Origin: a virus
Virus record (IMG/VR): IMGVR_UViG_3300021963_005655
Span: 1 to 41,145 of that record
DNA: 41,145 bases
Strand: one strand, 5' to 3'
This document shows positions 13,108 through 41,145 of the stretch, piece by piece (the stretch's first letter is position 1; each line of letters starts with the position of its first letter). The position numbers were made by a program, and so were the translations under genes. The notes under the pieces are model-generated. The model made no database searches, was not told where the DNA came from, and worked only from the letters and a program-made list of their open reading frames with translations.

Positions 13108-13346
13108 GTGATATAATAATGCCTAGAATGACCGATACGATGGAAACGGGTGTATTGGTTAATTGGTTTGTAAAAGAGGGAGATTGTGTTAAATCGGGTG
13201 ATATAATAGCAGAGATTGAAACGGATAAAGCCATAATGGATTTAGAAGTGTGGGAGAGTGGATGTATAACTCATATAGAAATAAAAGAAGGACAAAGAAT
13301 ACCAATTAATAGTATAATAGCTAAAATAGAAAATAATGTCAGATAA
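13104..13346 (+). CDS. Stand-alone lipoyl/biotinyl domain protein (80 aa)
   Basis: This 80-residue protein is one complete lipoyl domain. It starts with DIIMPRMTDTMETGVLVNWF, has VKEGDCVKSGD, and carries the modification hairpin EIETDKAIMDLE with Lys42 in the DKA turn. The second half has WESGCITHI and IPINSIIAKIE. The overall match is to the E2 component of pyruvate or acetoin dehydrogenases, where a lipoyl group on this lysine carries an acyl unit. There is no E1/E3-binding or acyltransferase domain. It overlaps the radical SAM gene by 11 bases. The same gene block encodes short E1-alpha-like and E1-beta-like proteins. Biotin attachment is less likely because the lysine is in DKA, not MKM. 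Confidence 0.9.
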   Translation: MSDIIMPRMTDTMETGVLVNWFVKEGDCVKSGDIIAEIETDKAIMDLEVWESGCITHIEIKEGQRIPINSIIAKIENNVR

Positions 13347-14760
13347 ATTCAAAGTTGATTTAGAACAACAAAATCCTTTGTATGTGAATACAAAGAAAAC
13401 ACTAGATGCGGTAGGACCGGGTATGTGTTTAGCAAAATGGACGCAAGTAACGCTATCTTTACAGGTAGGACACAATCACTCATGTCACCATCCTAGAACA
13501 CACGCAATTTCTCCGCAAGAGATTGCACGAAACCCATCGGCACTTCACAATACGAGATACAAAAAACTTCGTAGAAAAGAAATGTTGAATGGAGCTAGAC
13601 CTACTGAATGTGATTATTGTTGGGGAGTAGAAGATAATTCTAGCATATTTTCTGATAGAGTTTTCAAATCTTCAGAAAGTTGGTCTTTACCATTTATGGA
13701 GCAAATCAAAAATTCGGATTGGAGAGATGATTTTAATCCTAAGTATGTTGAAGTAGCATTTAGTAATGCTTGTAATTTTAAATGTTCTTATTGTGGACCT
13801 GCATATAGTTCTCAATGGGTTGAGGAAATTGAAAAATACGGCGCCTATCCAACAACGGATAGATTTAATGATACTCAATATTTAATTGAGGAACACAAAA
13901 TGCCAATTGCTCAAAAAGATTATAATCCATATACGGAAGCCTTTTGGAAATGGTGGCCAGATTTATACAAAGATTTACACACCTTTAGAATTACGGGTGG
14001 TGAACCATTATTGGCAAAAGATACTTGGAAAGTGTTAGATTATATTATAGACCAACCAAATCCAAATAAACAACTTAAATTAGCATTTAATTCAAACTTA
14101 GGTGCACCTGATGCATTAATTGATAAGTTTATTGAAAAACTTAAAAGAATCGAAGATGAGGAAAGAGCAAGTGAAATTGTAATTTTCACATCTTGTGATA
14201 CTTGGGGAGAGCAAGCTGATTATATTAGAACGGGTATGGAATTTAATAGATTTTGGGATAACGTTAATAAAATTTTAACCAAATGTCCAAGAGTTATTAT
14301 TACTTTTATGTCAACATATAATGCATTGAGTTTATTCAATTATAATAAGTTGATTAAAGAGGTTTATAACTTAAAAGATATCTATGGTAGCTACGATAGA
14401 TATTGGAATTCGGCAGTATTTTTAGATTCATCATATTTAAGATATCCACAACATCAGACTGTTCAAATTCTTCCATATGATTTTTCTAAAAAATTATTAG
14501 AGCAAACTAAGTTAATTACATATTATGCTATTCCTGTATTTGAACCAAAGTATATTGGATTTTCTGATATTGAAGTTCAGAAATTAAAAAGAATATATGA
14601 TTGGATGATATCACCACAAGATGGTAGCAAACAACTTAGAAATCGTTATAATTTCCACAAATACTTTACAGAACACGATAAAAGAAGAGGAACTAATTTT
14701 GTGAAAACATTTCCTGAATTGGAAGAATTTTATAATTTTTGTGGAACTATTCAAATTTAA
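13336..14760 (+). CDS. Radical SAM protein with N-terminal Cys cluster (twitch/SPASM-like)
   Basis: This 474-residue protein carries the radical SAM motif CNFKCSYC, with C146, C150 and C153 binding the 4Fe-4S cluster, followed by RITGGEPLL, the GGE SAM-binding motif. A second set of cysteines lies before the core (C31, C50, C92, C95; CDYCW), suggesting an auxiliary cluster of the twitch or SPASM type at an unusual N-terminal place. Such enzymes generate a 5'-deoxyadenosyl radical for difficult C-H chemistry on peptides, sugars or other molecules. It overlaps the lipoyl gene and is followed by a free LamG protein. Substrate unknown; lipoate-type sulfur insertion is not indicated. Confidence 0.85.
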   Translation: MSDKFKVDLEQQNPLYVNTKKTLDAVGPGMCLAKWTQVTLSLQVGHNHSCHHPRTHAISPQEIARNPSALHNTRYKKLRRKEMLNGARPTECDYCWGVEDNSSIFSDRVFKSSESWSLPFMEQIKNSDWRDDFNPKYVEVAFSNACNFKCSYCGPAYSSQWVEEIEKYGAYPTTDRFNDTQYLIEEHKMPIAQKDYNPYTEAFWKWWPDLYKDLHTFRITGGEPLLAKDTWKVLDYIIDQPNPNKQLKLAFNSNLGAPDALIDKFIEKLKRIEDEERASEIVIFTSCDTWGEQADYIRTGMEFNRFWDNVNKILTKCPRVIITFMSTYNALSLFNYNKLIKEVYNLKDIYGSYDRYWNSAVFLDSSYLRYPQHQTVQILPYDFSKKLLEQTKLITYYAIPVFEPKYIGFSDIEVQKLKRIYDWMISPQDGSKQLRNRYNFHKYFTEHDKRRGTNFVKTFPELEEFYNFCGTIQI

Positions 14761-14765
14761 AAAAT

Positions 14766-15533
14766 ATGAGTTTATTAATAAAAAAAGAAGAACCTTGGGT
14801 TATTTTACCCGAAAGTAGATATGATATTACCGATAGGAAGATAGATACCTTTATGGATGATGATTTCTCATTATATCTTAAAGTTAAAATATTTCCCGAA
14901 ATGATGGAATATAATGAGGAAGGATTTGCATTTGCTAGAAGTGGTAAACATTCTGGTTTATCTTTTTATAAAGTAAAGGATAATGATGGTAATGATATTG
15001 TTACATTAATGTGGACATATTGGTTTATGGATGATAGTTTTGTACAATTTCATTATAATATAGAAGCATCGGAAATAAATGAATTTATAGAAGTAGTGGT
15101 TTTAAATGATGATAGTAATTCTAAAACATTTACACTATATGTAAACTCTAAATTAGTAGATACTAAAGAATATGTTGAGAAAGAGAAGCAATCTTATAAA
15201 TTCGGAGAAATGGGAGGTGGAGGATTCTACCAATTTGGAAATGGAAATTTTCAGGTACCAGATATAGCAATGCATTTAGAATGTGAATTTGATATGTGTT
15301 TTTTAATTAAAGGATTACGTTCTTTAAATGAAATGCAAACGATATCAAATACATATGAAGAAAATTTAATTGAGTTCTTAGAAGAAATTAAAGTATTCAA
15401 AGAATCTACTCCTTATAAAAAAGATTTAGCATTCTTTTTGGATTTTAAACAACAAAATAGATACAAAGTATGGGAGTTAACGCATAATGGAAACTATTTA
15501 TCAAAAGCAACTTTAGAAAACATTTATTTTTAA
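14766..15533 (+). CDS. Free-standing LamG/concanavalin-like protein
   Basis: I place the start at ATG 14766, just after the radical SAM stop; the frame could open from TTG at 14739 but that would overlap the previous gene without need. The 255-residue product is mostly one beta-sandwich resembling the LamG parts of the three galactosyltransferase fusions: DDDFSLYLKVKIF, HSGLSFYKVKD, FIEVVVLNDDSNSKTFTLYV and NSKLVDTKEY, then a C-terminal helix and DFKQQNRYKVWEL. There is no catalytic motif or signal peptide. It probably binds carbohydrate or mediates contact with the glycosyltransferases or virion. Its stop overlaps the next start (TAATG). Confidence 0.72.
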   Translation: MSLLIKKEEPWVILPESRYDITDRKIDTFMDDDFSLYLKVKIFPEMMEYNEEGFAFARSGKHSGLSFYKVKDNDGNDIVTLMWTYWFMDDSFVQFHYNIEASEINEFIEVVVLNDDSNSKTFTLYVNSKLVDTKEYVEKEKQSYKFGEMGGGGFYQFGNGNFQVPDIAMHLECEFDMCFLIKGLRSLNEMQTISNTYEENLIEFLEEIKVFKESTPYKKDLAFFLDFKQQNRYKVWELTHNGNYLSKATLENIYF

Positions 15534-16498
15534 TGAAAATATTAATCACAGGCGGCGCAGGCTATTTGGGTTCGGTTATTGTAGATAAAATGTTGAAAGC
15601 CGGACATGAAATCGTAGTATTAGACAAATTATTATTTAATCAAACTTCTCTATTACAATATACATCGAATCCAAAATTTAAATTCATTTATGGAGATGTT
15701 CGTAATGTAACGGAATTGGAAAGATTATGTAAAGAAGCTGATGTAATTATTCCATTGGCAGCAATCGTAGGATTTCCTGCTTGTGCGGCTGACCCTAAAT
15801 TGGCAAAAGAAATTAATTTTGACCAAATCTTTAATATTGTAAGATTTGCTAAAGATAAAAAGATTTTATATCCCAATACAAATAGTGGATATGGGATTGG
15901 TGTAGGCCAAACGGAATGTACGGAGGAATCACCACTTACTCCTATTTCAGTTTACGGACAAACTAAATGCGATGCTGAAAACTTTTTAAGAGCAAACACA
16001 TCAGCAATTACATTTAGATTAGCAACTGTATTTGGAGTATCACCAAGAATGAGAACCGATTTATTGGTAAATGATTTTACTTATAAAGCAATAACCGATA
16101 AATACATAGTTGTATTTGAAAAGAATTTTAAAAGAAACTTTATTCACGTTGAAGATGTTGCATCGGCATTTCTTTTTATGTTAGAAAACTACGATACTTA
16201 CAAAGGTGAAGTGTTTAATGTAGGATTAAGTTCGGCAAATCTTTCAAAGCAAGAATTGTTAGAAAAGATACAATCCCATGTAAAGGATTTTGCGGTATCA
16301 TACAACGATTTTTATGAGGACCCCGATAAAAGAGATTACATTGTATCGAACGCTAAAATAGAAGCGACTGGTTGGATGCCTGAATGGGATTTAGATAGAG
16401 GTATAAAACAATTGATTCAAGGATATCAAATGATAGTTCCAAAAATGGGAGCAGAATTTAGAAACGGATTTCCATTAGGTTACGCAAATCAAACATAA
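15533..16498 (+). CDS. NAD-dependent nucleotide-sugar epimerase/dehydratase (extended SDR)
   Basis: This 321-residue protein has the NAD(P)-binding loop GGAGYLG (residues 7-13) at the N-terminus, DVRN and the LAAIVGFPAC segment, and the catalytic pair Y141-x3-K145 (YGQTK). NFIHVEDVASAF and EVFNVG are typical of nucleotide-sugar epimerases and dehydratases. Length is normal for the family. It acts in the cytoplasm on an NDP-sugar, by 4-epimerisation, 4,6-dehydration or 4-reduction; sequence alone does not decide which. The adjacent RmlC-like gene suggests a deoxysugar route with a 4-keto intermediate. Both neighbours are tightly packed, so it is part of the same operon. Confidence 0.87.
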   Translation: MKILITGGAGYLGSVIVDKMLKAGHEIVVLDKLLFNQTSLLQYTSNPKFKFIYGDVRNVTELERLCKEADVIIPLAAIVGFPACAADPKLAKEINFDQIFNIVRFAKDKKILYPNTNSGYGIGVGQTECTEESPLTPISVYGQTKCDAENFLRANTSAITFRLATVFGVSPRMRTDLLVNDFTYKAITDKYIVVFEKNFKRNFIHVEDVASAFLFMLENYDTYKGEVFNVGLSSANLSKQELLEKIQSHVKDFAVSYNDFYEDPDKRDYIVSNAKIEATGWMPEWDLDRGIKQLIQGYQMIVPKMGAEFRNGFPLGYANQT

Positions 16499-21021: not shown

Positions 21022-22014
21022 ATGAAAAAAACAGACAAAATCTTAGTTACGGGTGCAAGTGGATTTATTGGTTCACGATTATTAAAAATGTTGTATGAAA
21101 GTGGTTACACTAATTTAAGAGCAACTACTTTTGCAAGAGATTTGAGAAACGATTTCGAAGGAACTCAATTTGTAGAGCACATTAAAGGCGATTTACAAAC
21201 CGCTGAATTTTGTGAAAAGATTGTACAAAATGTAGATGTGGTATTTCATTGTGCAGCTAATACATCAAATGCATTGGATACAAAAGTAAATCCATTGATA
21301 CACGTTACAGCAAACGTTGAAATGAATGTAAATTTAATGGAGCAAGCTTGGAAAAACTCCGTTAGAAAATTTATGTACATTTCATCCAATACAGTATATC
21401 CAAACATTGGTAGTGAATATTGTACGGAAGATATTGAAGTACAATCGCCAAATATATATCCTGCATATAAAGCAGTTGGTAATATGAAACGATATGGCGA
21501 AACACTTTGCGACTTCTTATCAAATCATATTCACAATCCAATGCAATGTGTAATCATTAGACCTTCAAACGCATTCGGACCAAATGATAAGTATGATTAC
21601 GAAAAGTGTCACGTTACCCCCGCAAATATCCGTAAAGTAGCAGATGGATTAAATCCAATCCCGGTATGGGGTGATGGAACTGAAGTTAGAGATGTGATTC
21701 ACGTTGATGATATGGTTAGTGGATTTATATGTGTTGCAGAAAATGTAGATACATATGATGTTTATAATGTATGCTATGGAAGTGGGTACACTGTTAATGA
21801 AGTTTTGGATACTATTAAATCGATTGAAAATAACGATAACCCAATTGATTATGTAAGTAATAAAGCTCCTATGATTCCCGTTAGATTACTATCTAATAAG
21901 AGATTGAAGCAACTGGGTTGGAAACCTAAATATGATTTGAGAAGTGGATTAGAAGATGCGTTAAAATGGTATAAAGAGCATAAAAACGAATTCAATCCGA
22001 ATTCAAAACCTTAA
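21022..22014 (+). CDS. NAD-dependent NDP-sugar epimerase/reductase (extended SDR)
   Basis: This 330-residue protein has the loop GASGFIG (about residues 10-16), VVFHCAANTSN, YISSNTVYPN with the Ser region, and the pair Y146-x3-K150 in YPAYKAVGNMK, a spacing reminiscent of GDP-fucose synthase (YxxAKxxG). Later motifs are VIIRPSNAFGPNDKYD, VWGDGTEVRDVIHVDDMV and YNVCYGSGYTVNE. It is probably a nucleotide-sugar 4-reductase/epimerase or 4-epimerase. It shares a TAATG junction with the second radical SAM gene. This copy retains the catalytic pair, in contrast to the SDR at 19007. Confidence 0.85.
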   Translation: MKKTDKILVTGASGFIGSRLLKMLYESGYTNLRATTFARDLRNDFEGTQFVEHIKGDLQTAEFCEKIVQNVDVVFHCAANTSNALDTKVNPLIHVTANVEMNVNLMEQAWKNSVRKFMYISSNTVYPNIGSEYCTEDIEVQSPNIYPAYKAVGNMKRYGETLCDFLSNHIHNPMQCVIIRPSNAFGPNDKYDYEKCHVTPANIRKVADGLNPIPVWGDGTEVRDVIHVDDMVSGFICVAENVDTYDVYNVCYGSGYTVNEVLDTIKSIENNDNPIDYVSNKAPMIPVRLLSNKRLKQLGWKPKYDLRSGLEDALKWYKEHKNEFNPNSKP

Positions 22015-23123
22015 TGGATAACAAAGAGGAAATACTTAAAAAATACGTGTGTGAGATGCCATTTATGTACAGCGATGTACAATGGTCATCTCAATTCGTA
22101 TGCTGTCCTTCTTGGGCACCACAAAGTATTAGAGTAGATGGGAATGGAAAAGAAAGTTGGTTGCCAGTAAATGAAACCGATGATGTAATGAGAAATTGGA
22201 CATCCACTCAAGCTCAAAATATCCGTAAATCGGTATTGGATGGTACTTACAAATATTGTGACCACAAAATATGCCCGAGATTAAATGAATTAATAAACAC
22301 AGGCAGAAAGCCATATCTATTTAAAGAAATAGATGAGTTCAGAGAGATTTATAATATTCATACCGAAGAAGATATCGTAAATTATAATACACCACCTGAA
22401 GAGATTTTATTTGGATTTGATAGAAGTTGTAATTTAAGATGCCCATCGTGTAGAGTATCATTGATACCAAATGATGATTTAGAATCTCCACAACATAAAG
22501 CAAAGTTGCACTTATTAAAATCCATCGAAGATAATTTTGCAAGTAATTTAAAAAGAATTATGGTAACCGGAAGTGGTGACCCATTCTACTCAAAAATTTA
22601 TAGAGATTATTTGATAAACTTTGATATAGCAAAATATCCTAATTTAGAACAATTACAAATAATCACAAATGGTAATTTGTTGGATGAAAAATTATGGAAT
22701 CAAATGAAAGCTAGTCCATACATTAAAACAATAGAAATTAGTATTGATGCTGGAACAAAGGATACCTATGAAAATAAGACTAGATTAAATGGTAATTGGG
22801 ATAGATTGATAACTAATTTAAAATTCTTATCAAAGCAAAATACAATAGATGAATTTATATGCTCTATGGTTGTTAGTAAATATAATTACAAAGAAATGTA
22901 TATGTTCTACGAAACTATAACGGATATATTTAAGGATTCTACATTTGATTTAGTAATAAATTACAGACAATTAGTTGATTGGGGAACATATTCGGCACAA
23001 ACATTAAAAGAATTGCAAGTATTTAATGAGGAACACGAATTGTTTAATGAATTTTTAGAAGAAGTAAATAAAATAGATAATAAGAAATTTGTAAATCACA
23101 ATTTTCATCATTTAAAAAAATAA
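22014..23123 (+). CDS. Radical SAM protein, second copy
   Basis: This 369-residue protein has CNLRCPSC with C139, C143 and C146 for the 4Fe-4S cluster, preceded by FGFDRS and followed by VTGSGDPFYS (the GGE-like strand carries GSGD). IEISIDAGTKDTYE is the family's SAM-binding strand, as in MoaA/PqqE-type enzymes. The N-terminus holds C13, C30, C31, C82 and C87, which could bind a second cluster, as in the other radical SAM gene at 13336. The core is closer to the SPASM/MoaA group and differs clearly from the first copy. It lies directly before the E1-beta-like gene (one base gap). Substrate unknown. Confidence 0.84.
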   Translation: MDNKEEILKKYVCEMPFMYSDVQWSSQFVCCPSWAPQSIRVDGNGKESWLPVNETDDVMRNWTSTQAQNIRKSVLDGTYKYCDHKICPRLNELINTGRKPYLFKEIDEFREIYNIHTEEDIVNYNTPPEEILFGFDRSCNLRCPSCRVSLIPNDDLESPQHKAKLHLLKSIEDNFASNLKRIMVTGSGDPFYSKIYRDYLINFDIAKYPNLEQLQIITNGNLLDEKLWNQMKASPYIKTIEISIDAGTKDTYENKTRLNGNWDRLITNLKFLSKQNTIDEFICSMVVSKYNYKEMYMFYETITDIFKDSTFDLVINYRQLVDWGTYSAQTLKELQVFNEEHELFNEFLEEVNKIDNKKFVNHNFHHLKK

Positions 23124-27519: not shown

Positions 27520-30500
27520 GTGGATAAACCGGTAGTCAAAAAAACAATAGTCGTATATTCGGGTCGTTTTCAACCCTTCCATAAGGGGCATTATGCGGCA
27601 TACGAAAAATTAGTATCGAAATTCGGTGCTAATAATGTTTATATAGGCACATCGGATAAAAGTGATGGTGGCAAATCTCCATTTAATTTTAAAGAAAAAG
27701 TTGTAATAATGGGTAAAATGTTTGGAATACCTCCAAGCAAAATAGTGCAAGTAGCAAACCCATATTCACCAAAAGAAATACTTTCTAAGTTCGATGGGCA
27801 AACCACAGCATACATTGCTGCGGTTGGTGAAAAAGATGCAACTCGATTAGCAGGAAAATATTTTAAACCATATAAAGGAAAAACGGGTTATGGTTATGAT
27901 GAGATTGGTTATACTTATATTATACCACCTGAATCAAATCCAATTAGTGGAACTGATGTAAGGAACTGGTTAAGTTCGGATAAAGCTGAAAAACTATTTT
28001 TGAAAGCATATCCAAAATTCGATAAAGAAATTTATAAAATGATAACTAACAAATTGATTAAAGAGGAATTTATAAAAGGTTATCCATCGAAAGAGGATGT
28101 TAAAAGAATACAAAAGAAAAACGATGATATTCGTTCGGTAGCAACTACGGATGATTCATATGTATATGACCCTATCGCTGAGCAAATTGCAAAATTGGTT
28201 TTTGAAGCGGATAATTTCATAGAAGAATACTTTTTAGAAGAAGAACCAAATCCTATAATGGATAAGGAGATATCATATACTGCGGCTGATGGTAAGAAGA
28301 AAAAAATAACCGTAAGAGGTGCATTGAGATTACCAAAAGACCACGAAGCACATATTCAAGCCTCTAAAATTGTTGGACCAAATGATGCACCGGCAAACGA
28401 ACCAAAGAAAAAAGAAGAACCAAACCAACCAGGCCAACCTGTTAAAAAAGGTGATACGGAGCAAGGTAAATCGGATAATAAACCAGCCGATGGTGGTACA
28501 CAGCAAGGTCCTCCGCCTGAACAAAAATTAAAAGGTTCGGAATTAAAATCTTCTGCGGAAGATAGAGTTGCAAAAGAAAGAAAGGCTCAGGAGGTAAAAG
28601 ATGCATTAGACAATGAAATTAAAAATTTAAATAAAGAAGAGCAAGATTTCTTAGATAAGGGTGAACATAAACAGGGTTCTAAGTTTATGAACTCTTTAAA
28701 GGATGGTATTAAGCGAGTAGCGGATACTAAAGTTGTTAAAGCAATTGGACACACACTTCAGCATAAAGCAGAAATGGTTAGTGGTGCATTTGATGGTGTT
28801 AAGGCATTAGCAAGTGGACAAAAAATTGGCTCTACTAAAAACAAAGAAACTGGCGAATGGGAATACTCCGATGAAACTCGTAAGAAGCAAATACATCATA
28901 TGAAGCATTTTGCTAAAGATGTGGCTCTATTAGTTGGTAGTGTTGCATTGGGTAGTGGATTAGCATATGGTGCAAAAGCATTAGCGGGGGGTTCTAGTTT
29001 GGGTGGAGCAATTGCTGCAGCCGGAAAAGGTGCAGTTGGTGCATTTACTCACGGTGTAGGTGGATTTGCGGCACACTTAGGTAAAGATGCGATTAAACAC
29101 GTAGCATTGGAATCTATGGGAATGGGTGGTACTCAAGCCGCAGTTGGTGGTGCGGGATTAGCCGGTGCCACTATGGGATTATTAGAAATACGTTCTCTTA
29201 TTAATGAAGAAGAAATGAATAATAATAAATTTATTCAGAACTTTATTAATAAGATGGCAGAAAAAATGGAAACATTTGAAATGTCAGATGAACAATTATT
29301 ACAATCTATTAAATCATATAAGCAGGGTAAAAATTTTGGTGATTTGGTTAAAGAAGATGTTAATGTAGATGTTGATAAAGGCGATGAGGTTTTGATGGGT
29401 AAGTTTAAGAATAAGAAAGTTACCGTTAAAGATATAGGAAAAGACCAGCACGGAATGCCAACGATAAATGGTAAACAGGCAACAACATTTAGAATTTCTA
29501 ATCAAAATATCAAAGAAAAGTTATCACATTCCAATTTAAATAGTGTAGAGAAATATGCGGATAGAGAATTATCTCCAGCTGATATTGAGTTTAGTAATCA
29601 CTTTTTTGATAGAGTAAATGATACTCGCAATGGTAAAGAAATATCGGAACCAGAATTAACAGGTTTCTTTAAAAGATTGGCAAGACACAAAAAAGAATTT
29701 TTAGATTTTTTAGATAAATACAATCAAATTGTAGTTAGAGATACTAGAAGTGATATCAATATTCCATTTGTAAAGATGGCTAATAAGGTTATCGCTAAAA
29801 CAGTGATGAGAAAAGATGATTTTAAAACTTCATCTCATACAATTGTAAATGAAATAACTAAAGGATTTTTTAAAGGTAAAATCAAAATTGGTGGACAGCC
29901 AGTAGATGTAGAAGTTGAATTGGTTGGAGCAGATAATAAAAATAGAGATTTTCTTACCAAAGTTATTGGTATTGATAAAAAGTATCAGAGTAAATTACCA
30001 ATAGGTTCTACATTACCTATACCATCTAGAATTTTTAGACATGGTGGTTGGGTAAAAGTAAAAGTACCATCCGTATTTAATGAAGTACATCAATCAACCA
30101 CATATAGAGCAGATAAAGATGCTGAAATGGATTTTATGAAGCATCACAAAACATCATTAGGTGCGCCTGATATGGGATATGAAGCTGAATTAGATACATA
30201 TGATAACGATGATAATAGAAAATTAGTTCCAGGCTACCAAGTTAATAGAAATGATAAAGAAGATTTTGGATACGAAAAAGTAAAAGATGTTGATGAATCA
30301 AAAATATTAAAAGAAGAAATTCCAACTACGACTGAAAAAAAAAGTAAAGGTAGAATTATAGGTGAATTTATTATGTTTGCTTATGAAAGATTGGGATTAA
30401 AAGATGTTCCATCGAATATTAAATTAGTAAGAGATAATGAATTTGCTACTACATTTAAATCCTTTGGTGGGTACGACCCGCATTCTGATGATATATACGT

Positions 30501-31920
30501 TTATGTTTCTAATAGAAGTTTGCCTGATATTTTAAGAACACTTGCACACGAATTAATTCATCTTAAACAAAGACAGAGTGGATATATTGGCGGAGTTAAA
30601 GATGGTGAAACGGGTTCCGATGTAGAAAACGAAGCAAATGCGGCAGCTGGAATCTTATTGAGAGATTTTGGTAAAAGAAATGGGCACATTTACGAATCGA
30701 TAAACGAATCTTTATTATTGGAAGGTGGAGCATATGGACATATGAATCATCCATTTGATATTTCAATGAATCTTACATTTGGTGATTTAAAAAAAATCAT
30801 CAACAATGCATTAGATGGTAAGTTGGGTGTAGTTAGAGAAAAAACCGATGGACAGGCTTTAGCAATTAGTTGGAAAAATGGTAGACTAGTTGCGGCTCGT
30901 AACAAATCGCATTTAGCAAATAGTGGAGCAAACGCTTTGGATATGAGTGGATTAGCATCTAAATTTGGTGGTAGAGGAGCATTGAGTGATGCATATAATT
31001 TTGCTATGAGAGATTTATCAACCGCTATTAGTGGTTTGGGAGAAAAGGAAAGGCAGAGTATATTCAAAGATGGTTCAGCATTTTGTAACTTAGAAGTAAT
31101 ATATCCACAAAATGCAAATGTAATTCCATATGGACAATCTTTATTAGTATTTCATAATGTAGTTGAATACGATGAGAAAGGAAATGCTATCGGTGTAATA
31201 AAAGGAGCCGAAAGTAAATTAGCATCTATGATTAAAAATGTAAATGCACACGTTCAATCCAAATATACATTACAAGGGCCTCCAATTACAAAATTACCAA
31301 AAGATGAGAAGTTAAGTTCTCAAAAAGGTAAATTCAACGCAATGTTATCTAAATTACAAAGTGAATTTGGATTATCTGATAAAGATGGTATCGCTGAATA
31401 TCATTTTGCTTGGTGGATGAAGTTTGTTGATAATTCGAAAAAGAATCTTTCTCAATTAGAAAAAGAAGGATTGGCAAGAAGATGGGCATTTGATAATAAA
31501 TCGTTTGGTATCAAATCCATAGTAGATGAAGAAGCTAAGAAATGGGCGGACGGAGTGGATAAAGATGCTAAGGATAAAATAATGAAAGGTAATATTCGTA
31601 AATTTGAAGATATCTTTTTGGGAGTAGGCGCAGAAGTTCTTTCGTTTATGAGTTCAGTATTAACTGCTCAACCTGATAAAGCATTACAATCAATCAAAGC
31701 ATCATTAGAATCATCTATATCAGATATTAGAAATGGTGGTAGTGAAGCTCAAATAAAAAGATTAGAAAAGGAATTAGCTAGATTAAACGCTATTGGTGGA
31801 TTTGAAAAGTTAGTTCCAAATGAAGGATTAGTATTTTTCTACAAAGGAAATACCTACAAATTAACGGGCACATTCGCTCCGTTAAATCAAATTTTAGGAA
31901 TTTTTAAGTTTGGGAGATAA
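27520..31920 (+). CDS. Giant multi-domain protein: HxGH nucleotidyltransferase + HExxH metallopeptidase + KxDG ligase-like domain
   Basis: This 1466-residue protein starts at GTG 27520. Residues 8-150 form an NMN-adenylyltransferase/cytidylyltransferase-like domain with GRFQPFHKGH (HKGH at 21-24) and ISGTDVR (142-148). A charged Pro/Gln/Lys linker follows (about 285-350), then a Gly/Ala-rich hydrophobic segment (about 468-557), then a small beta-like module with VLMGKFKNKKVTVKDIG (about 618-640), known to me from T4-like virus proteins. HELIH at 1010-1014 with a downstream ENEANAA segment indicates a zinc metallopeptidase-like domain. The last third starts after LLLEGG (1065-1070) and contains EKTDGQALAISW (KTDG, 1108-1111), the lysine motif of covalent nucleotidyltransferases such as ligases; I recall a cyanophage family DUF6267 with it. 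Its place among head genes suggests a virion-internal polyprotein cut by the prohead protease; that is inference. Confidence 0.83.
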   Translation: MDKPVVKKTIVVYSGRFQPFHKGHYAAYEKLVSKFGANNVYIGTSDKSDGGKSPFNFKEKVVIMGKMFGIPPSKIVQVANPYSPKEILSKFDGQTTAYIAAVGEKDATRLAGKYFKPYKGKTGYGYDEIGYTYIIPPESNPISGTDVRNWLSSDKAEKLFLKAYPKFDKEIYKMITNKLIKEEFIKGYPSKEDVKRIQKKNDDIRSVATTDDSYVYDPIAEQIAKLVFEADNFIEEYFLEEEPNPIMDKEISYTAADGKKKKITVRGALRLPKDHEAHIQASKIVGPNDAPANEPKKKEEPNQPGQPVKKGDTEQGKSDNKPADGGTQQGPPPEQKLKGSELKSSAEDRVAKERKAQEVKDALDNEIKNLNKEEQDFLDKGEHKQGSKFMNSLKDGIKRVADTKVVKAIGHTLQHKAEMVSGAFDGVKALASGQKIGSTKNKETGEWEYSDETRKKQIHHMKHFAKDVALLVGSVALGSGLAYGAKALAGGSSLGGAIAAAGKGAVGAFTHGVGGFAAHLGKDAIKHVALESMGMGGTQAAVGGAGLAGATMGLLEIRSLINEEEMNNNKFIQNFINKMAEKMETFEMSDEQLLQSIKSYKQGKNFGDLVKEDVNVDVDKGDEVLMGKFKNKKVTVKDIGKDQHGMPTINGKQATTFRISNQNIKEKLSHSNLNSVEKYADRELSPADIEFSNHFFDRVNDTRNGKEISEPELTGFFKRLARHKKEFLDFLDKYNQIVVRDTRSDINIPFVKMANKVIAKTVMRKDDFKTSSHTIVNEITKGFFKGKIKIGGQPVDVEVELVGADNKNRDFLTKVIGIDKKYQSKLPIGSTLPIPSRIFRHGGWVKVKVPSVFNEVHQSTTYRADKDAEMDFMKHHKTSLGAPDMGYEAELDTYDNDDNRKLVPGYQVNRNDKEDFGYEKVKDVDESKILKEEIPTTTEKKSKGRIIGEFIMFAYERLGLKDVPSNIKLVRDNEFATTFKSFGGYDPHSDDIYVYVSNRSLPDILRTLAHELIHLKQRQSGYIGGVKDGETGSDVENEANAAAGILLRDFGKRNGHIYESINESLLLEGGAYGHMNHPFDISMNLTFGDLKKIINNALDGKLGVVREKTDGQALAISWKNGRLVAARNKSHLANSGANALDMSGLASKFGGRGALSDAYNFAMRDLSTAISGLGEKERQSIFKDGSAFCNLEVIYPQNANVIPYGQSLLVFHNVVEYDEKGNAIGVIKGAESKLASMIKNVNAHVQSKYTLQGPPITKLPKDEKLSSQKGKFNAMLSKLQSEFGLSDKDGIAEYHFAWWMKFVDNSKKNLSQLEKEGLARRWAFDNKSFGIKSIVDEEAKKWADGVDKDAKDKIMKGNIRKFEDIFLGVGAEVLSFMSSVLTAQPDKALQSIKASLESSISDIRNGGSEAQIKRLEKELARLNAIGGFEKLVPNEGLVFFYKGNTYKLTGTFAPLNQILGIFKFGR

Positions 31921-34940: not shown

Positions 34941-36017
34941 ATGAACGAAGATTTAAATAAATGGTTTAAGGAAAAGTGGGTAAACATCGGCAAAAAAGTT
35001 GATGGTAAACATCCACCATGCGGAACTTCGGGAGAAAAAAAGGGTTATGCAAAGTGTGTACCTGCCGCAAAAGCTGCCGGAATGAGTAAAAAAGAGAAAG
35101 AAAGTGCAACTCGTAGAAAAAGAGATGCACAAAATGATGCAGGGAGAGGTGGTAAAGATAGTAAGGGGCAAGGTAAGACACCTATATATGTTTCTACTAA
35201 ACCTAAAAACGAAGAGTGGAGCGATAAATATAAAAGTAGTATAGATTGTAATAATCCAAAAGGTTTCTCTCAAAAAGCACATTGTGCAGGAAAGAAAAAA
35301 AATGAAACTATGAACATAGAAGAAAAACTAAATCTTTTTTTAGAAAAGAATTGCCCAACCGATGCAGGAAAGTGGGCGGCATCAAAAGCGGCAGCAAAAA
35401 GAAAATTCGATGTATATCCATCAGCTTATGCAAATGGATGGGCGGCAAAAAATTATAAAGGAAAAGGTGGTGGTTGGAAAACTTGCAATGAAAGTTTAGG
35501 TGAATTAAATGCACTGCACGAATGTTGGGATGGTTATAGAGAAATTGGAGGTAAGATGAAAAATGGTAAGATGGTCCCAAACTGTGTACCTGTAAAAGAA
35601 AATATTAAAGATATGAAATTAGTAAATTTAATGCCTGTAAATGTTAAGCATGTAAACGAAGAAGTTGATGATATCGAAGAGTATGATGTAGAAAACGGAG
35701 AGGATATGAAAGAATTCATTCAGTTTATGAAAGAATATACGCAATATTTGGCAGAAGCTAATTGTAATTGTGTATATGAGGCAGAATATCAGGGTAGAAA
35801 AGTACAATTGGGTAAACCAATGGCCGGCGATGTTAAGAAGTTTAAGGTATATGTAAAAAATGATAGTGGCAATGTTGTTAAAGTAAACTTTGGACAAAAA
35901 GGAGTAAAGATTAAAAAAAATAACCCCGATAGAAGAAAATCTTTTAGAGCAAGACATAATTGCGATACACCTGGTCCAAGATGGAAAGCAAGATATTGGT
36001 CTTGTAGAAAATGGTAA
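34941..36017 (+). CDS. Mosaic protein of small Cys-containing virus modules (DUF5872/DUF6321-like)
   Basis: This 358-residue, very basic protein consists of several short modules. Residues 1-85: WFKEKWVNIGKK, CGTSGEKKGYAKCVP (27-41) and a Lys/Arg tail, resembling a family I recall as DUF5872. Residues 103-115: C-x11-C. Residues 138-182: CPTDAGKWAASKAAAKRKFD to TC. Residues 195-216: CWDGYREIGGKM then VPNCV, a motif frequent in cyanophage head-region proteins. Residues 275-358: CNC, GRKVQLGKP, KNNPDRRKSFRARHNCDTPG and YWSCRKW, like a T4-type virus domain I recall as DUF6321. It may bind zinc or DNA in the prohead. Family names are from memory. Confidence 0.75.
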   Translation: MNEDLNKWFKEKWVNIGKKVDGKHPPCGTSGEKKGYAKCVPAAKAAGMSKKEKESATRRKRDAQNDAGRGGKDSKGQGKTPIYVSTKPKNEEWSDKYKSSIDCNNPKGFSQKAHCAGKKKNETMNIEEKLNLFLEKNCPTDAGKWAASKAAAKRKFDVYPSAYANGWAAKNYKGKGGGWKTCNESLGELNALHECWDGYREIGGKMKNGKMVPNCVPVKENIKDMKLVNLMPVNVKHVNEEVDDIEEYDVENGEDMKEFIQFMKEYTQYLAEANCNCVYEAEYQGRKVQLGKPMAGDVKKFKVYVKNDSGNVVKVNFGQKGVKIKKNNPDRRKSFRARHNCDTPGPRWKARYWSCRKW

Positions 36018-36073: not shown

Positions 36074-37798
36074 ATGGCAGATAAAACATTTTTCGGTAGG
36101 TTACAAAAATTATTTTCAACACAAACTATCGTCCGTAAAACCGCTAAAGGAGTAAAGGTAGTAGATACGGATGAATATCAGAGCTTATCAACTAATTTAG
36201 TAGATAGATATACCCGTATGCGTACGCCACAATATAGTGGTGGATTGATTGAATCGGCTATGGCTTATCAGCAAGTCCGCATTGATTTATTCAGAGATTA
36301 CGATGGTATGGATAACGACCCGATTATAGCATCAGCATTAGATATATATTCGGATGAAGCGACTGTAAAAAATGAATTAGGTGATGTATTAAAAATTAAT
36401 TGTGCAAACGAAAATACGAAAGAAATACTACATAATTTATTTTATGATATAATAAATATAGAATTTAACTTATGGCCTTGGACGAGAAATTTAGTTAAAT
36501 ATGGTGATTTCTTTTTACAATTAGAAATATCTCCGGAATTAGGTATTATGAATGTAATGCCAATGTCTGTTTATGAAACATCAAGAGTAGAGGGATTTGA
36601 CCAAGAAAACCCACAAAGAGTTAAATTTGTATATTCTCCATTCCAAAATCCAAATAATGGATTATCTATGGCTTCGGCTAAAAAAGAATATGAAAACTAT
36701 GAGGTAGCTCATTTCCGTTTATATTCGGATTCAAATTTTTTACCATATGGTAAATCTATGGTAGAGGGAGCAAGACGAGTTTGGAAGCAATTATCTTTAA
36801 TGGAAGATGCGATGTTAATTCATCGTATTATGAGAGCACCTGAAAAAAGAATTTTTAAAGTAGATGTTGGTAATATTCCACCAACTGAAGTTGATAACTA
36901 CATGCAAAAAATTATCAACTCATCTAAGAAAGTTCCATTCTTAGACCCAAACACGGGAGAATATAATTTAAAATATAATGTTCAAAACTTAATCGAAGAT
37001 TACTATATGCCAGTTCGTGGTAGTGATAATGGTACATCTATCGATACATTAAAAGGTTTGGAATACAATATGATTGAAGATATCAATTACTTAAAAGGTA
37101 AGATGATGGCTGCATTGAAAATTCCAAAAATATATTTAGGTTATGAAGAAGATGTTAGCGGTAAAGCTACATTAGCAGGACAAGATGTTCGTTTTGCAAA
37201 AACAATCGAAAGAATCCAAAAAGTATTAGTATCAGAATTAACGAAAATTGCAATCGTTCATTTATATGCGCAGGGATTAGATAAAGCAGATGATTTAGAT
37301 TTTTCATTGGAATTAACTGTACCATCTAAAATATATGAGCAAGAAAAGGTTGAATTATATACATCTAAAATTGCATTAATTCAACAAATGCAACAAACAA
37401 AGATGTTCTCTAAAAAATGGATGTATGATGCAATTATGCAAATGACCCCTGAAGAGCAAGATGAATTGACTGTGGATGTTATAGAAGATACAAAACAAGC
37501 GTTTAGATTAACTTCAATTGAAACTCAAGGTGTTGACCCTGCTAAAGAATCTGGCACCGAAGAACCAACCAATGTAGAAGAAGAAATTCAAAAAATAAAA
37601 GCGGAATTAGCAGAAGAAGATAAAGTTGGTAGACCTAAAGACCCAATTAGATATGGTAAAGATGACCATCATTTGGGAAGAGACCCGTTAGGTATTAAGA
37701 GTTTGAAGCAAAAAACACAAAGAGAATCTAAAGAGATATTCAAAGATATGTTGGGTAATAAGAAAACTATTTTGATGGAAGATTTGGATAAAAAGTAA
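36074..37798 (+). CDS. 20: Portal vertex protein (gp20-like)
   Basis: This 574-residue protein matches T4-type portals: FGRLQKLF near the start, MDNDPIIASALDIYSDEA, a segment with NLVKYGDFFLQLEI, VAHFRLYSDSNFLPYGKS, EGARRVWKQLSLMEDAMLIHRIMRAPEKR, and NYLKGKMMAALKIPKIYLGYEED. It forms the ring at the special head vertex through which terminase packages DNA and to which the neck attaches. It is slightly longer than T4 gp20 (524), with an acidic, Lys-rich C-terminal tail from about residue 490 (TEEPTNVEEE, GRPKDPIRYGKDDHHLGRDP). A region similar to that tail is often seen in marine T4-like portals. Start ATG 36074 is preceded by AAATAACAA. Confidence 0.96.
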   Translation: MADKTFFGRLQKLFSTQTIVRKTAKGVKVVDTDEYQSLSTNLVDRYTRMRTPQYSGGLIESAMAYQQVRIDLFRDYDGMDNDPIIASALDIYSDEATVKNELGDVLKINCANENTKEILHNLFYDIINIEFNLWPWTRNLVKYGDFFLQLEISPELGIMNVMPMSVYETSRVEGFDQENPQRVKFVYSPFQNPNNGLSMASAKKEYENYEVAHFRLYSDSNFLPYGKSMVEGARRVWKQLSLMEDAMLIHRIMRAPEKRIFKVDVGNIPPTEVDNYMQKIINSSKKVPFLDPNTGEYNLKYNVQNLIEDYYMPVRGSDNGTSIDTLKGLEYNMIEDINYLKGKMMAALKIPKIYLGYEEDVSGKATLAGQDVRFAKTIERIQKVLVSELTKIAIVHLYAQGLDKADDLDFSLELTVPSKIYEQEKVELYTSKIALIQQMQQTKMFSKKWMYDAIMQMTPEEQDELTVDVIEDTKQAFRLTSIETQGVDPAKESGTEEPTNVEEEIQKIKAELAEEDKVGRPKDPIRYGKDDHHLGRDPLGIKSLKQKTQRESKEIFKDMLGNKKTILMEDLDKK

Positions 37799-37844: not shown

Positions 37845-38720
37845 ATGAAAAATATTAAGCACTCGAAATTTAAAAACACAGGATTCATCTTTGAATTGCT
37901 AGTTAGACAGATTACATCTGAAATAATGACTGGCAAACAAAATTCAAAAGCGGAAAAGATATTGAAAGAATATTTCTCTACTAAAAAAGAACTTTCAAAG
38001 GAATTGAAATTATACCAGTATTTGATTAATGAAAAATATAATTCAGAATCAAAAGCAGAAAAGTTTGTTGAAACTGTGTGTGAAGCTCGTAAGAGATTAG
38101 ATGAGCAAAAACTTATGAAAGAAAAATATAATTTAATTAAGCAAATTAAAGAAAATTATAATATAGATGAGTTTATAAAATCTCCAATTTCAAACTATAA
38201 AAATTTAGCATCAATATACAAAATATTTGAAGCAACCATTACCAAAGAATCATTTGAACCAAAAGATATCGTTAATTCTAAATTTACTATTGTTGAGAAT
38301 ATGATAAATTCATCAATAGAAAATAAAGATAAAAAAGTAAACGATAGAGTATTGGAAGAATATAGAAAGCAAGATGAGGAAGTTAGAATGCTATCATATA
38401 AAATGTTAGTTGAAAACTTTAATTCAAAATATAGTAACTTATCGGCTGGACAAAAAAACTTACTTAAAGAATATATTAACAATATTAACAATACGGGTAA
38501 ATTAAAAGAGTATGTTAATAATGAAGTTAATACATTATCTGAAGGATTAAAATCGGTTGGTTCTAAAATCAATGATAAAGTAACTAAAATCAAATTAGCT
38601 GAAACGATTTCTAATATTAAAAAAATTAAGACGGTTAAACGATTAAGAGAATCCCATTTATCAGCATTAATGATGAGTTACGAATTATTAAAAGAATTAA
38701 AAGATAGTTTAAATAAATAA
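37845..38720 (+). CDS. Helical head-region protein of unknown function (291 aa)
   Basis: This 291-residue basic protein is almost wholly alpha-helical. It begins MKNIKHSKFKNTGFIFELLV, contains repeated Lys/Glu-rich helices (KAEKILKEYF, AEKFVETVCEARKRLDEQ), and near the end RLRESHLSALMMSYELLKEL. The place between portal and prohead protease in T4-like phages is where prohead core and scaffold proteins usually lie, and in related phages a helical gene of this type occurs there. A scaffold or core role is therefore plausible. No enzyme motif or membrane segment is visible. Confidence 0.7.
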   Translation: MKNIKHSKFKNTGFIFELLVRQITSEIMTGKQNSKAEKILKEYFSTKKELSKELKLYQYLINEKYNSESKAEKFVETVCEARKRLDEQKLMKEKYNLIKQIKENYNIDEFIKSPISNYKNLASIYKIFEATITKESFEPKDIVNSKFTIVENMINSSIENKDKKVNDRVLEEYRKQDEEVRMLSYKMLVENFNSKYSNLSAGQKNLLKEYINNINNTGKLKEYVNNEVNTLSEGLKSVGSKINDKVTKIKLAETISNIKKIKTVKRLRESHLSALMMSYELLKELKDSLNK

Positions 38721-38958: not shown

Positions 38959-39723
38959 ATGCCAGCAGTATCAAAAGCACAACAAAGATTTATGGGTATG
39001 GTTCACGCCGCTGATAAAGGAGAAACTCCTGCATCCCCAGAAGTTGCCAAAGTATCAAAAGATATGGATGATAAAGATGCTAAAGATTTTGCATCAACTT
39101 CTCATAAAGGATTGCCAAGTAAAATAAAAGAAATGGTGTTAGCTGAATTACGTTCAGTAAGAGCTATTCAAACCGATTATGCTAAAACCTTAGATGCTAT
39201 TCAGCAAAACTTAGAAGGATATAAACAATCCAAAGGAACTCCACAAGAAAAACAATATATACAAAAACTTAAAGCACTAACTACACAAAAGAAGAAACTT
39301 TCAGCAGAATTAGATGCTAAGGTTAGTGGTATGTACAAAGATGCCGAATTAAAAGTAGATGAAATGAGTGGTTCGGATGCGGCAGGCCCATATAATACAC
39401 CATTTGCATTTGGTAAGCCCGAAAGCGAAGAAAAGAAGGGTAAAAGACAAGCCGATTTAACTGGATATAGTGTTGTTAAAGAAAATCGTTGGTTAGAATT
39501 GAAAAAAGATGAATCATCCGCTCAGGCTAAAATTGGTAAAGGTATATCCAATATCAATAAACAATTAGCAGAAATGGAAAGATTTCTTAATTGGTATGGA
39601 AAAATTAAGAACGAAAGTGGTGTAGATAATAAAAGTTATTGGAAAAGAACAAATAGTCATATTTATAGTATAAAGGAAAGGCTATTAAAATTAGACCAAA
39701 AAATTAGACAAATTTCAGAATAA
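38959..39723 (+). CDS. DUF3008-type N-terminus with coiled-coil C-terminus (head region)
   Basis: This 254-residue protein begins PAVSKAQQRFMGMVHAA, then SPEVAKVSKDMDDKDAKDFAS and HKGLPSKI. This pattern matches a short widely distributed family I recall as DUF3008 in residues 1-58. The remainder is a helical segment (about 60-130, KTLDAIQQNLEGYKQSKG), a Gly/Asp linker, then another long helical stretch ending in KERLLKLDQKIRQISE. It overlaps the next gene's start by one base (TAATG). In marine and freshwater phages this type lies among head genes. The role is probably structural in the prohead core; no catalytic residues are seen. Confidence 0.72.
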   Translation: MPAVSKAQQRFMGMVHAADKGETPASPEVAKVSKDMDDKDAKDFASTSHKGLPSKIKEMVLAELRSVRAIQTDYAKTLDAIQQNLEGYKQSKGTPQEKQYIQKLKALTTQKKKLSAELDAKVSGMYKDAELKVDEMSGSDAAGPYNTPFAFGKPESEEKKGKRQADLTGYSVVKENRWLELKKDESSAQAKIGKGISNINKQLAEMERFLNWYGKIKNESGVDNKSYWKRTNSHIYSIKERLLKLDQKIRQISE

Positions 39724-40241
39724 TGAAAATATCTCAATTAAAAGAATTCGTTAAGCAGGTCGTTAGAGAAGAAAACGATTATCAGCAATTATTTAAACAT
39801 ATGTTAGATAAAAGTGGTAAGAGTATTACTTCTATGTCCGATGATGAAAAGAAGAAATTTTTCAATGCAGTAGATACGGCATATAAGGCAAAATCGGAAG
39901 GTAAACTAATAGGTTATAACGAAGCCGAATTAAGTGCCGCTCAACAAAAAATAGATTTGAACAAAAACGGAAAAGTTGATGGCGATGATTTAGCTAAATT
40001 GAGAGCAAAGGATGAAGTTGGGACTAACGATTGGCACTTTAAAGCGATTATGAAGTTGTATGATAAGGCTGGTTCATTTGGTAAAAAGAAGATAGCAGCC
40101 GCAGCAACATCATCTACAAACGCAAGTAGAAAAGAAATTGAAAGAGCATTGAGAGATACCGATTATGAAGAAATAACGGATATATCAGATAAAATTGGAT
40201 TGAAAGAGGCGTTTAATAGAATGGCTCAAAAAAAAAAATAG
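39723..40241 (+). CDS. Head-region protein with EF-hand-like loop; likely -1 frameshift donor
   Basis: This 172-residue protein begins MKISQLKEFVKQVVREEN, contains a helical basic N-terminus, then an EF-hand or dockerin-like loop DLNKNGKVDGDD (residues 78-89) with Asp78, Asn80, Asn82, Asp86 and Asp89 as possible Ca2+ ligands. The C-terminal part is helical with Ala-rich and Arg/Glu runs. The frame ends MAQKKK-stop in an 11-A tract (40228-40238). Directly after it, the -1 frame continues with a membrane segment and reaches 40657, and no start codon lies in that frame before 40316. A -1 shift would add 139 residues. A role in the prohead core is likely from position only. Confidence 0.75.
   Translation: MKISQLKEFVKQVVREENDYQQLFKHMLDKSGKSITSMSDDEKKKFFNAVDTAYKAKSEGKLIGYNEAELSAAQQKIDLNKNGKVDGDDLAKLRAKDEVGTNDWHFKAIMKLYDKAGSFGKKKIAAAATSSTNASRKEIERALRDTDYEEITDISDKIGLKEAFNRMAQKKK
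40228..40238 (+). other. Eleven-A tract, candidate -1 frameshift site
   Basis: Eleven A residues (40228-40238) span the last Lys codons before the TAG at 40239. In the zero frame the codons are AAA AAA AAA TAG. A -1 shift reads AAA AAA AAA ATA GTT and enters the open frame that encodes a membrane segment and the downstream protein. Homopolymer slippage of the ribosome or polymerase, or an assembly indel, would all account for it. Confidence 0.6.
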
Positions 40242-40657: not shown

Positions 40658-41145
40658 ATGAATAAAGGATTATTAATAGAGACCCATTTGTTTGAAGCTA
40701 AGCTCATAGAGCAAGATAACGGAACTTATTTAGTTAAAGGCATCTTACAAAGAGCTGGTGCGCCAAATCAAAATCATAGAAGATATCCAAAAGAAATCTT
40801 AGAAAGAGAGTGTAAGAAGTACGAACAACTTATCAAAGAAAGAAGAGCATTGGGTGAGTTAGACCATCCAGATTCGCCTGTTATTAACCTAAAAAACGTT
40901 TCACATAATATTAGAGAAATCGGATGGGATGGCGATGATGTTATTGGTGTAGTGGAAATTCTCTCAACCCCATCGGGAAACATTTTAAGAGAGTTATTAA
41001 AAAACAACATTCGTTTAGGAATTTCATCGAGAGGGTTAGGTTCAGTAAAAGAACTAAATGATGGTACTTTAATGGTTCAGGAAGACTTCGAATTAGTTGG
41101 ATGGGATTTTGTATCAAACCCATCTACACATGGGGCATTTATGGC
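40658..41145 (+). CDS. 21: Prohead core protease (gp21-like), 3' partial
   Basis: The frame runs from ATG 40658 (directly after the previous stop) off the right edge; 162 codons are seen. It starts MNKGLLIETHLFEAKLIEQD, then GILQRAGAPNQNHRRYPKEI, GELDHPDSPVINLKN (His70 a likely catalytic residue), and GISSRGLGSV with Ser123 or Ser124 the likely nucleophile, followed by GWDFVSNPST. This is the pattern of T4 gp21-type serine proteases of the prohead, which cut core and capsid precursors, in T4 after I/L-x-E. The place after the portal and core genes agrees. The major capsid gene is expected to the right. The next bases would be needed for the rest. Confidence 0.92.
   Translation, partial: MNKGLLIETHLFEAKLIEQDNGTYLVKGILQRAGAPNQNHRRYPKEILERECKKYEQLIKERRALGELDHPDSPVINLKNVSHNIREIGWDGDDVIGVVEILSTPSGNILRELLKNNIRLGISSRGLGSVKELNDGTLMVQEDFELVGWDFVSNPSTHGAFM

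Follow-up and report, generated by a model that had tools for sequence, protein, structure and literature searches.

A Candidate Head-Packaged Cargo Polyprotein Punctuated by L/I-x-E Linkers in a T4-like Virus of Aquatic Bacteria

Introduction

Large multi-domain phage proteins that join an embedded zincin peptidase to diverse enzymes have been described as polyvalent proteins, which are thought to be packaged and injected and which their describers, in the passages of that paper considered here, liken to viral polyproteins (Iyer et al., 2017; PMC5512222). In phage T4, the internal proteins (IPs) IPI-IPIII and Alt are directed to the head by a capsid-targeting sequence (CTS) and cut by the prohead protease gp21, the cut motif of which is L/I-x-E; for IPIII, packaging needs only the first ten residues, and residues 8 and 10 set processing (PMC9026906). 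The present analysis concerns a gene at 27,520 to 31,920 of a 41,145-nucleotide window, namely positions 1 to 41,145 of the IMG/VR virus record IMGVR_UViG_3300021963_005655, which derives from a T4-like virus of aquatic bacteria. The gene encodes a chain of enzyme-like modules with L/I-x-E motifs in its linkers, and its product is likely a cargo polyprotein that is packaged in the head, cut in trans by the prohead protease into separate enzymes and delivered to the host.

Comparison with the described systems places this locus between them. As in polyvalent proteins, several unrelated effector-type domains and a zincin peptidase lie in one phage polypeptide; unlike in polyvalent proteins, [LI]xE stands between the modules, the peptidase is an optional cassette, and cutting would probably fall to the prohead protease, in trans. 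Neither linkers of this kind nor an NMN adenylyltransferase (NMNAT) are mentioned in the passages of Iyer et al. (2017; PMC5512222) that were searched. With the T4 IPs and Alt the locus shares the L/I-x-E motif, divergent cargo, location in the head region and, in relatives, a ten-residue leader with [LI] at position 8 and E at position 10, whereas in T4 each cargo is a gene product by itself and here one chain may hold as many as about ten modules separated by predicted cut sites. The stand-alone NMNAT/cytidylyltransferases of cyanophages (PHROG 395; S-SCSM1 ORF91, P-SSM2), which have been reported in virions, likewise show the NMNAT domain and the CTS-like leader seen in relatives, but are separate genes with no fused ligase-like or other cargo modules. 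The ejection proteins of phiKZ and SPN3US are also head proteins in which a gp21-related protease cuts after Glu, with many cuts per head; they differ in the motif (S/A-x-E in phiKZ), in their long removed propeptides and in not being enzyme chains. Known precedents thus comprise polyvalent proteins and CTS-targeted internal proteins; a cassette-swapping cargo chain punctuated by LxE was not found described in the literature searched, nor were papers on LxE-punctuated T4-like polyproteins or on Microcystis phage Mel-JY01, an isolated relative, found in the open literature, which is not proof of absence.

Results

Translation confirmed the 1466-residue plus-strand open reading frame, with a GTG start, that an earlier note made from the sequence had read as a fusion of three unrelated enzyme domains. 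HKGH (residues 21-24), HELIH (1010-1014) and KTDG (1108-1111) do lie in one frame, together with SGTDVR at 143, their catalytic residues are conserved in distant relatives, and the Gly/Ala-rich hydrophobic segment noticed between domains is present at about residues 464-556. Three proved an undercount, however: all three domains are there, but so are a small beta module, a RegB-like module and two further modules (Table 1). The note had also proposed that domain borders coincide with L/I-x-E, of which the protein holds 15 matches; this is borne out by LLLE at 1065-1068 and LKE at 930-932, and a site placed near 558 corresponds to LLE (554-556) and INE (561-563).

Over a comparison set of about 150 related loci, the coincidence of borders with LxE lies far above chance in breakpoint, linker, depletion and insertion tests. 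[LI]xE ranks first of 1590 motifs tested at clustered homology breakpoints and occurs in 64 of 90 inter-module linkers, against 25.7 ± 3.8 after shuffling of the linkers. Inside modules it is depleted 3-fold (56 observed vs 168 expected), whereas the control motifs [LI]xD and [VMF]xE stand at 0.84 and 0.99 of expectation; in the non-head genes of the window [LI]xE is at 0.93 of expectation, with no depletion. Among 448 insertion/deletion events, LxE lies near the left edge in 244 and near the right edge in 260, where about 75 would be expected per side, and near both edges in 151, so that its frequency at these edges is about 3.3 times that at random positions, compared with values between about 0.6 and 2.3 for control motifs. 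At the border before the KTDG domain, P1 is Glu in 134 of 135 distinct DNA contexts and P3 is Leu or Ile in 134 of 135, while P2 takes nine different residues and the P3 codons are mixed. The pattern holds over many module families, and the proposal of a polyprotein with L/I-x-E cut sites is, at the level of sequence comparison, strongly supported.

The relatives behave as a rack of exchangeable cassettes between fixed ends. Related loci numbered 79 in a first scan; a second, queried with the C-terminal domain, returned at least 581 relatives in IMG/VR. Complete related proteins span 783-1974 residues, and the isolated Mel-JY01 carries a two-domain form of 639 residues with the predicted site IIAE↓GG (the arrow marks the cut). 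Every chain opens with the NMNAT and closes with the KTDG domain; the interior is assembled from no fewer than 12 kinds of cassette, the gain, loss and permutation of which yield 23 architectures among 52 complete proteins. For example, the peptidase follows the small beta module in the window but precedes it in three relatives (L031, L033 and L036). It is missing from 29 of the 52 complete relatives, in which cutting would therefore need to occur in trans. A comparison with phages that carry the domains as separate genes, which the earlier note had recommended, found the NMNAT, module D, the peptidase and the ligase-like domain each standing alone, module D in Flavobacterium phage immuto and Methylophilales phage Melnitz, and the peptidase in Synechococcus phages B23 and S-SRM01. 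In LR756500 the ligase-like domain has a gene of its own that starts MKFLKSYEEFLNENLILE↓GGSYGH, which resembles the fused linker SINESLLLE↓GGAYGH. A scan of genome contigs returned seven matches, from which no host can be read because all seven lie on metagenome-assembled bins.

Many relatives have amino termini that resemble capsid-targeting leaders. T4 IPII and IPIII start MKTYQEFIAE, and a relative's leader reads, for example, MKGLAKFLVE; M-x6-[LI]-x-E is matched by 40 of 55 distinct N-termini, and [LI]xE is contained in 52 of the 55. Similar leaders are borne by the stand-alone NMNATs of S-SCSM1, P-SSM2, S-SM2, S-SKS1 and S-SRM01 and by the B23 peptidase. The S-SCSM1 leader is MKSFLQFLKE, its gene is annotated as a virion protein, and its product was detected in the virion by mass spectrometry (PMC9602691); NMNAT-like proteins have been reported by the same means from virions of several cyanophages (PMC10665884). 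Packaging in the head, as the earlier note had it, thus draws support from the targeting-like N-termini of relatives and from the reported virion detection of stand-alone NMNAT homologues. As a separate observation, the leader of L036 is MNLINE, followed by exactly VDKP, where the window protein starts.

The gene sits in the head module of the record, with terminase, portal and protease genes downstream. The prohead protease that had been placed 9 kb downstream was found about 8.7 kb away, as an open reading frame matching the PHROG head maturation protease; a gp21-type protease is accordingly encoded in the same genome. This protease is itself rich in [LI]xE, as is a neighbouring head protein (Table 1), which is expected of T4-type core proteins cut into pieces. 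In the capsid proteins of three relatives, QLLDE↓A falls opposite the T4 gp23 cut site FLTE↓A in the alignment. Further, cargo modules recur in head genes nearby, where LxE marks the joins: module O, which also occurs in relatives' polyproteins, sits between INE↓ and IKE↓ in L032:21048-21899, and module E2 is found in L005:10974-12275 and in L024:8032-9225, in the latter after MKLLIRVLKE↓ and before NLKE↓. A large insertion also distinguishes versions of a DUF5872-type head gene (window 34941-36017; L027:16234-17679 vs L011:6907-7977); its right edge, TESVNEACWDG, is a VNE join and not [LI]xE.

The enzyme-like modules carry conserved catalytic signatures. Module 1 has the NadM-type motifs GRFQPFHxGH and SGTxxR, of which the H..H and SGT..R residues are kept in relatives far from the window protein; its nearest solved relatives are the archaeal NMNATs 1f9a/1ej2, and its match to NCBIfam TIGR01527 (7e-8) falls below that family's cut-off. 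The domain resembles archaeal-type NMN adenylyltransferases. In the peptidase, HExxH and a downstream Glu are invariant, stand-alone homologues included (H71, E72, H75 and E97 of the alignment, across ten sequences); the HELIH module is a zincin whose third ligand lies downstream. All five covalent nucleotidyltransferase motifs (the KxDG lysine, Ia, III, IV and V) are present in the C-terminal domain, where KxDG, ARNK, LEV, EGxVF and YKLTG are kept down to 35% identity. In fold prediction, a further check that had been suggested, the C-terminal model reached a predicted local distance difference test score (pLDDT) of 79, with RNA and DNA ligases at the top of the Foldseek list at weak scores; in a second structural comparison the KTDG lysine lined up with the nucleophile of T4 Rnl2, Rnl1 and a Naegleria ligase. 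Relative to T4 Rnl1 and Rnl2, the domain has motifs I, Ia, III, IV and V, and K1108 is in register with the nucleophile lysine in the predicted model, but overall similarity is weak (Foldseek E 0.1-1, VIA Z about 5) and a large helical insert is present. When the domain was searched against solved structures, by sequence and by profile, no meaningful match emerged. Module D is perhaps RegB-like: its Pfam match (E 0.012) is below the cut-off, hhalign gives a weak E of 0.22 with H48/R52 in register, and its AlphaFold model (40 sequences) has a pLDDT of only 48.

Table 1. Features of the cargo polyprotein gene and its head-module surroundings (window coordinates; res, residues)
Feature	Position	Strand	Support
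Late-promoter-like box ATATTTATA, 24 nt before start codon	27496..27504	+
Whole candidate cargo polyprotein gene, 1466 aa	27520..31920	+
Module 1, NMN-adenylyltransferase-like domain (res 6-179), HKGH and ISGTDVR	27535..28056	+	Pfam PF01467 above cut-off
Predicted propeptide-like linker, four [LI]xE ending at res 182, 221, 236, 241	28057..28242	+
Basic segment (res 244-325), common to a subset of relatives	28249..28494	+
Gly/Ala-rich hydrophobic segment (res 441-556), GLLE at its end	28840..29187	+
Predicted cut sites LLE (554-556), INE (561-563)	29179..29208	+
Small beta module C (res 610-659), GDxVLMGKFKNKKVTVK	29347..29496	+
Predicted cut site IKE (664-666)	29509..29517	+
Module D (res 669-775), RegB-like by weak sequence similarity	29524..29844	+
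Module E1 (res 782-856)	29863..30087	+
Module E2 (res 860-923); relatives also have it as an insert in another head gene	30097..30288	+
Predicted cut site LKE (930-932)	30307..30315	+
Module F, zincin-type metallopeptidase (res 942-1058), HELIH at 30547-30561	30343..30693	+
Predicted cut sites IYE, INE, LLE (ending res 1059, 1063, 1068)	30688..30723	+
Module G, KTDG covalent-nucleotidyltransferase/RNA-ligase-like domain (res 1069-1466), KTDG at 30841-30852	30724..31917	+
Portal protein	36074..37798	+	PF07230 1.1e-72
Head-module protein, 291 aa, 16 [LI]xE (2.6x shuffled expectation); candidate prohead core protein	37845..38720	+
Cassette O within head-module gene 39723-40241, then GLKE	40014..40202	+
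Head maturation (prohead) protease, 5' part, runs off window end	40658..41143	+	PHROG 207, E = 7e-49

Discussion

The reading favoured here, and judged likely, is that the gene encodes a cargo polyprotein which enters the head and is cut there in trans by the prohead protease, with its enzymes released and delivered. In such a scheme the polyprotein would be made late and built into the prohead core, where the phage's gp21-type protease would cut after L/I-x-E in the linkers and so release, in the maturing head, an NMN-adenylyltransferase, small modules, a zincin metallopeptidase and an RNA-ligase-like nucleotidyltransferase. These enzymes could then exit with the DNA and act early in infection, possibly in NAD supply, in repair of RNA or DNA ends and in attack on host or defence proteins. 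The chain itself would evolve as a cassette rack, new cargo entering between LxE linkers while the end domains stay fixed. Packaging, cutting and injection of the window protein, as well as its enzyme activities, are what we infer from these comparisons; injection of the released enzymes is probable by analogy with T4 Alt and the IPs and with polyvalent proteins.

Several observations weigh against this reading. The window protein and its close clade have the GTG start directly before the NMNAT and thus no targeting leader, although targeting could possibly proceed through the LxE-rich segment 180-241. Carry-over is a possible source of virion NMNATs according to the authors of both reports (PMC9602691, PMC10665884). 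One border site of the earlier note, near residue 255, is not there, the nearest being FLEE at 239-241, and the D/E1 and E1/E2 borders read VNE and FNE and not [LI]xE. Conversely, LxE lies within modules at residues 708-710, 947-949, 1173-1175 and 1291-1293, and therefore not every match can be a cut site. In two distant relatives from metagenome-assembled bins (L262 and L264), LLLM replaces LLLE before the KTDG domain; protease specificity may differ there, or the site may have been lost. Further, module borders were partly set by eye, although the breakpoint and insertion tests are independent of them, and the counts are not independent because sequences and insertion events share ancestry. 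Finally, only one of eight large related contigs yielded NadV, which phage NadM usually has as its partner.

Three other explanations were weighed. It is possible, though unlikely, that the protein is a polyvalent protein that enters both the head and the host in one piece, with any processing left to its own zincin peptidase after entry; in the passages considered, the zincin peptidase is the commonest polyvalent-protein domain, self-processing is proposed, and the N4 virion RNA polymerase is packaged uncut (Iyer et al., 2017; PMC5512222). However, the 29 of 52 complete relatives that have no peptidase still keep LxE linkers, and self-processing by an embedded peptidase is less likely for that reason; in addition, LxE is the motif of T4-type prohead proteases and is depleted inside modules. 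It is decidedly improbable that the LxE linkers are mere seams, either flexible acidic linkers or recombination hot spots, that are never cut. P1 Glu and P3 Leu/Ile are kept, with P2 free and P3 codons varied, at a border that needs no recombination, [LI]xE is depleted inside modules whereas matched motifs are not, and both stand-alone leaders and the aligned cut site of the capsid proteins carry the same motif, even if insertions do fall at LxE linkers and linkers such as SINE/SVNE recur. Least probable of the three is a non-virion, intracellular enzyme of NAD and RNA metabolism that stands among head genes by chance. Phage NMNATs are usually taken as NAD-salvage genes (PMC9503650), but targeting-like leaders occur in relatives and stand-alone forms, homologues have been detected in virions, the gene lies upstream of terminase in several phages, and NadV was not found in seven of the eight large related contigs.

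Whether the favoured cargo polyprotein is one case of a general cassette system in T4-type phages of aquatic bacteria, in which any cargo domain flanked by prohead-protease sites can drop into a head-core gene, travels into the prohead together with the fixed end domains, is cut free and is delivered, the early-infection enzyme set thereby evolving through exchange of cassettes in one polyprotein and its neighbouring head genes, is evenly balanced in our estimation. If the reading is true, a tailed phage would load many enzymes per head through one gene, as a polyprotein cut by its head-assembly protease, which would explain the diversification of T4-like phage cargo. Injected proteins would then be predictable from sequence, as domains between LxE linkers in head genes, and many uncharacterised modules would be marked out as likely to affect the host as infection begins. 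The reading is readily testable, because the isolated Microcystis phage Mel-JY01 carries the two-domain form with its predicted site.

Additional Observations

The box ATATTTATA recurs on the plus strand at window positions 1873, 24962, 27496, 34915 and 37816, and in related loci, about 19-29 nt before starts. Of the 111 sense copies counted over 28 sequences, 57 precede a start by 15-39 nt, vs 2.2 expected. The box may be a late promoter of this phage group, with TATTTATA in place of T4 TATAAATA. Elsewhere in the window, two radical-SAM-like genes (13336-14760 and 22014-23123) lie between a tail fibre gene and the head module, alongside two nucleotide-sugar epimerase genes (15533-16498 and 21022-22014).

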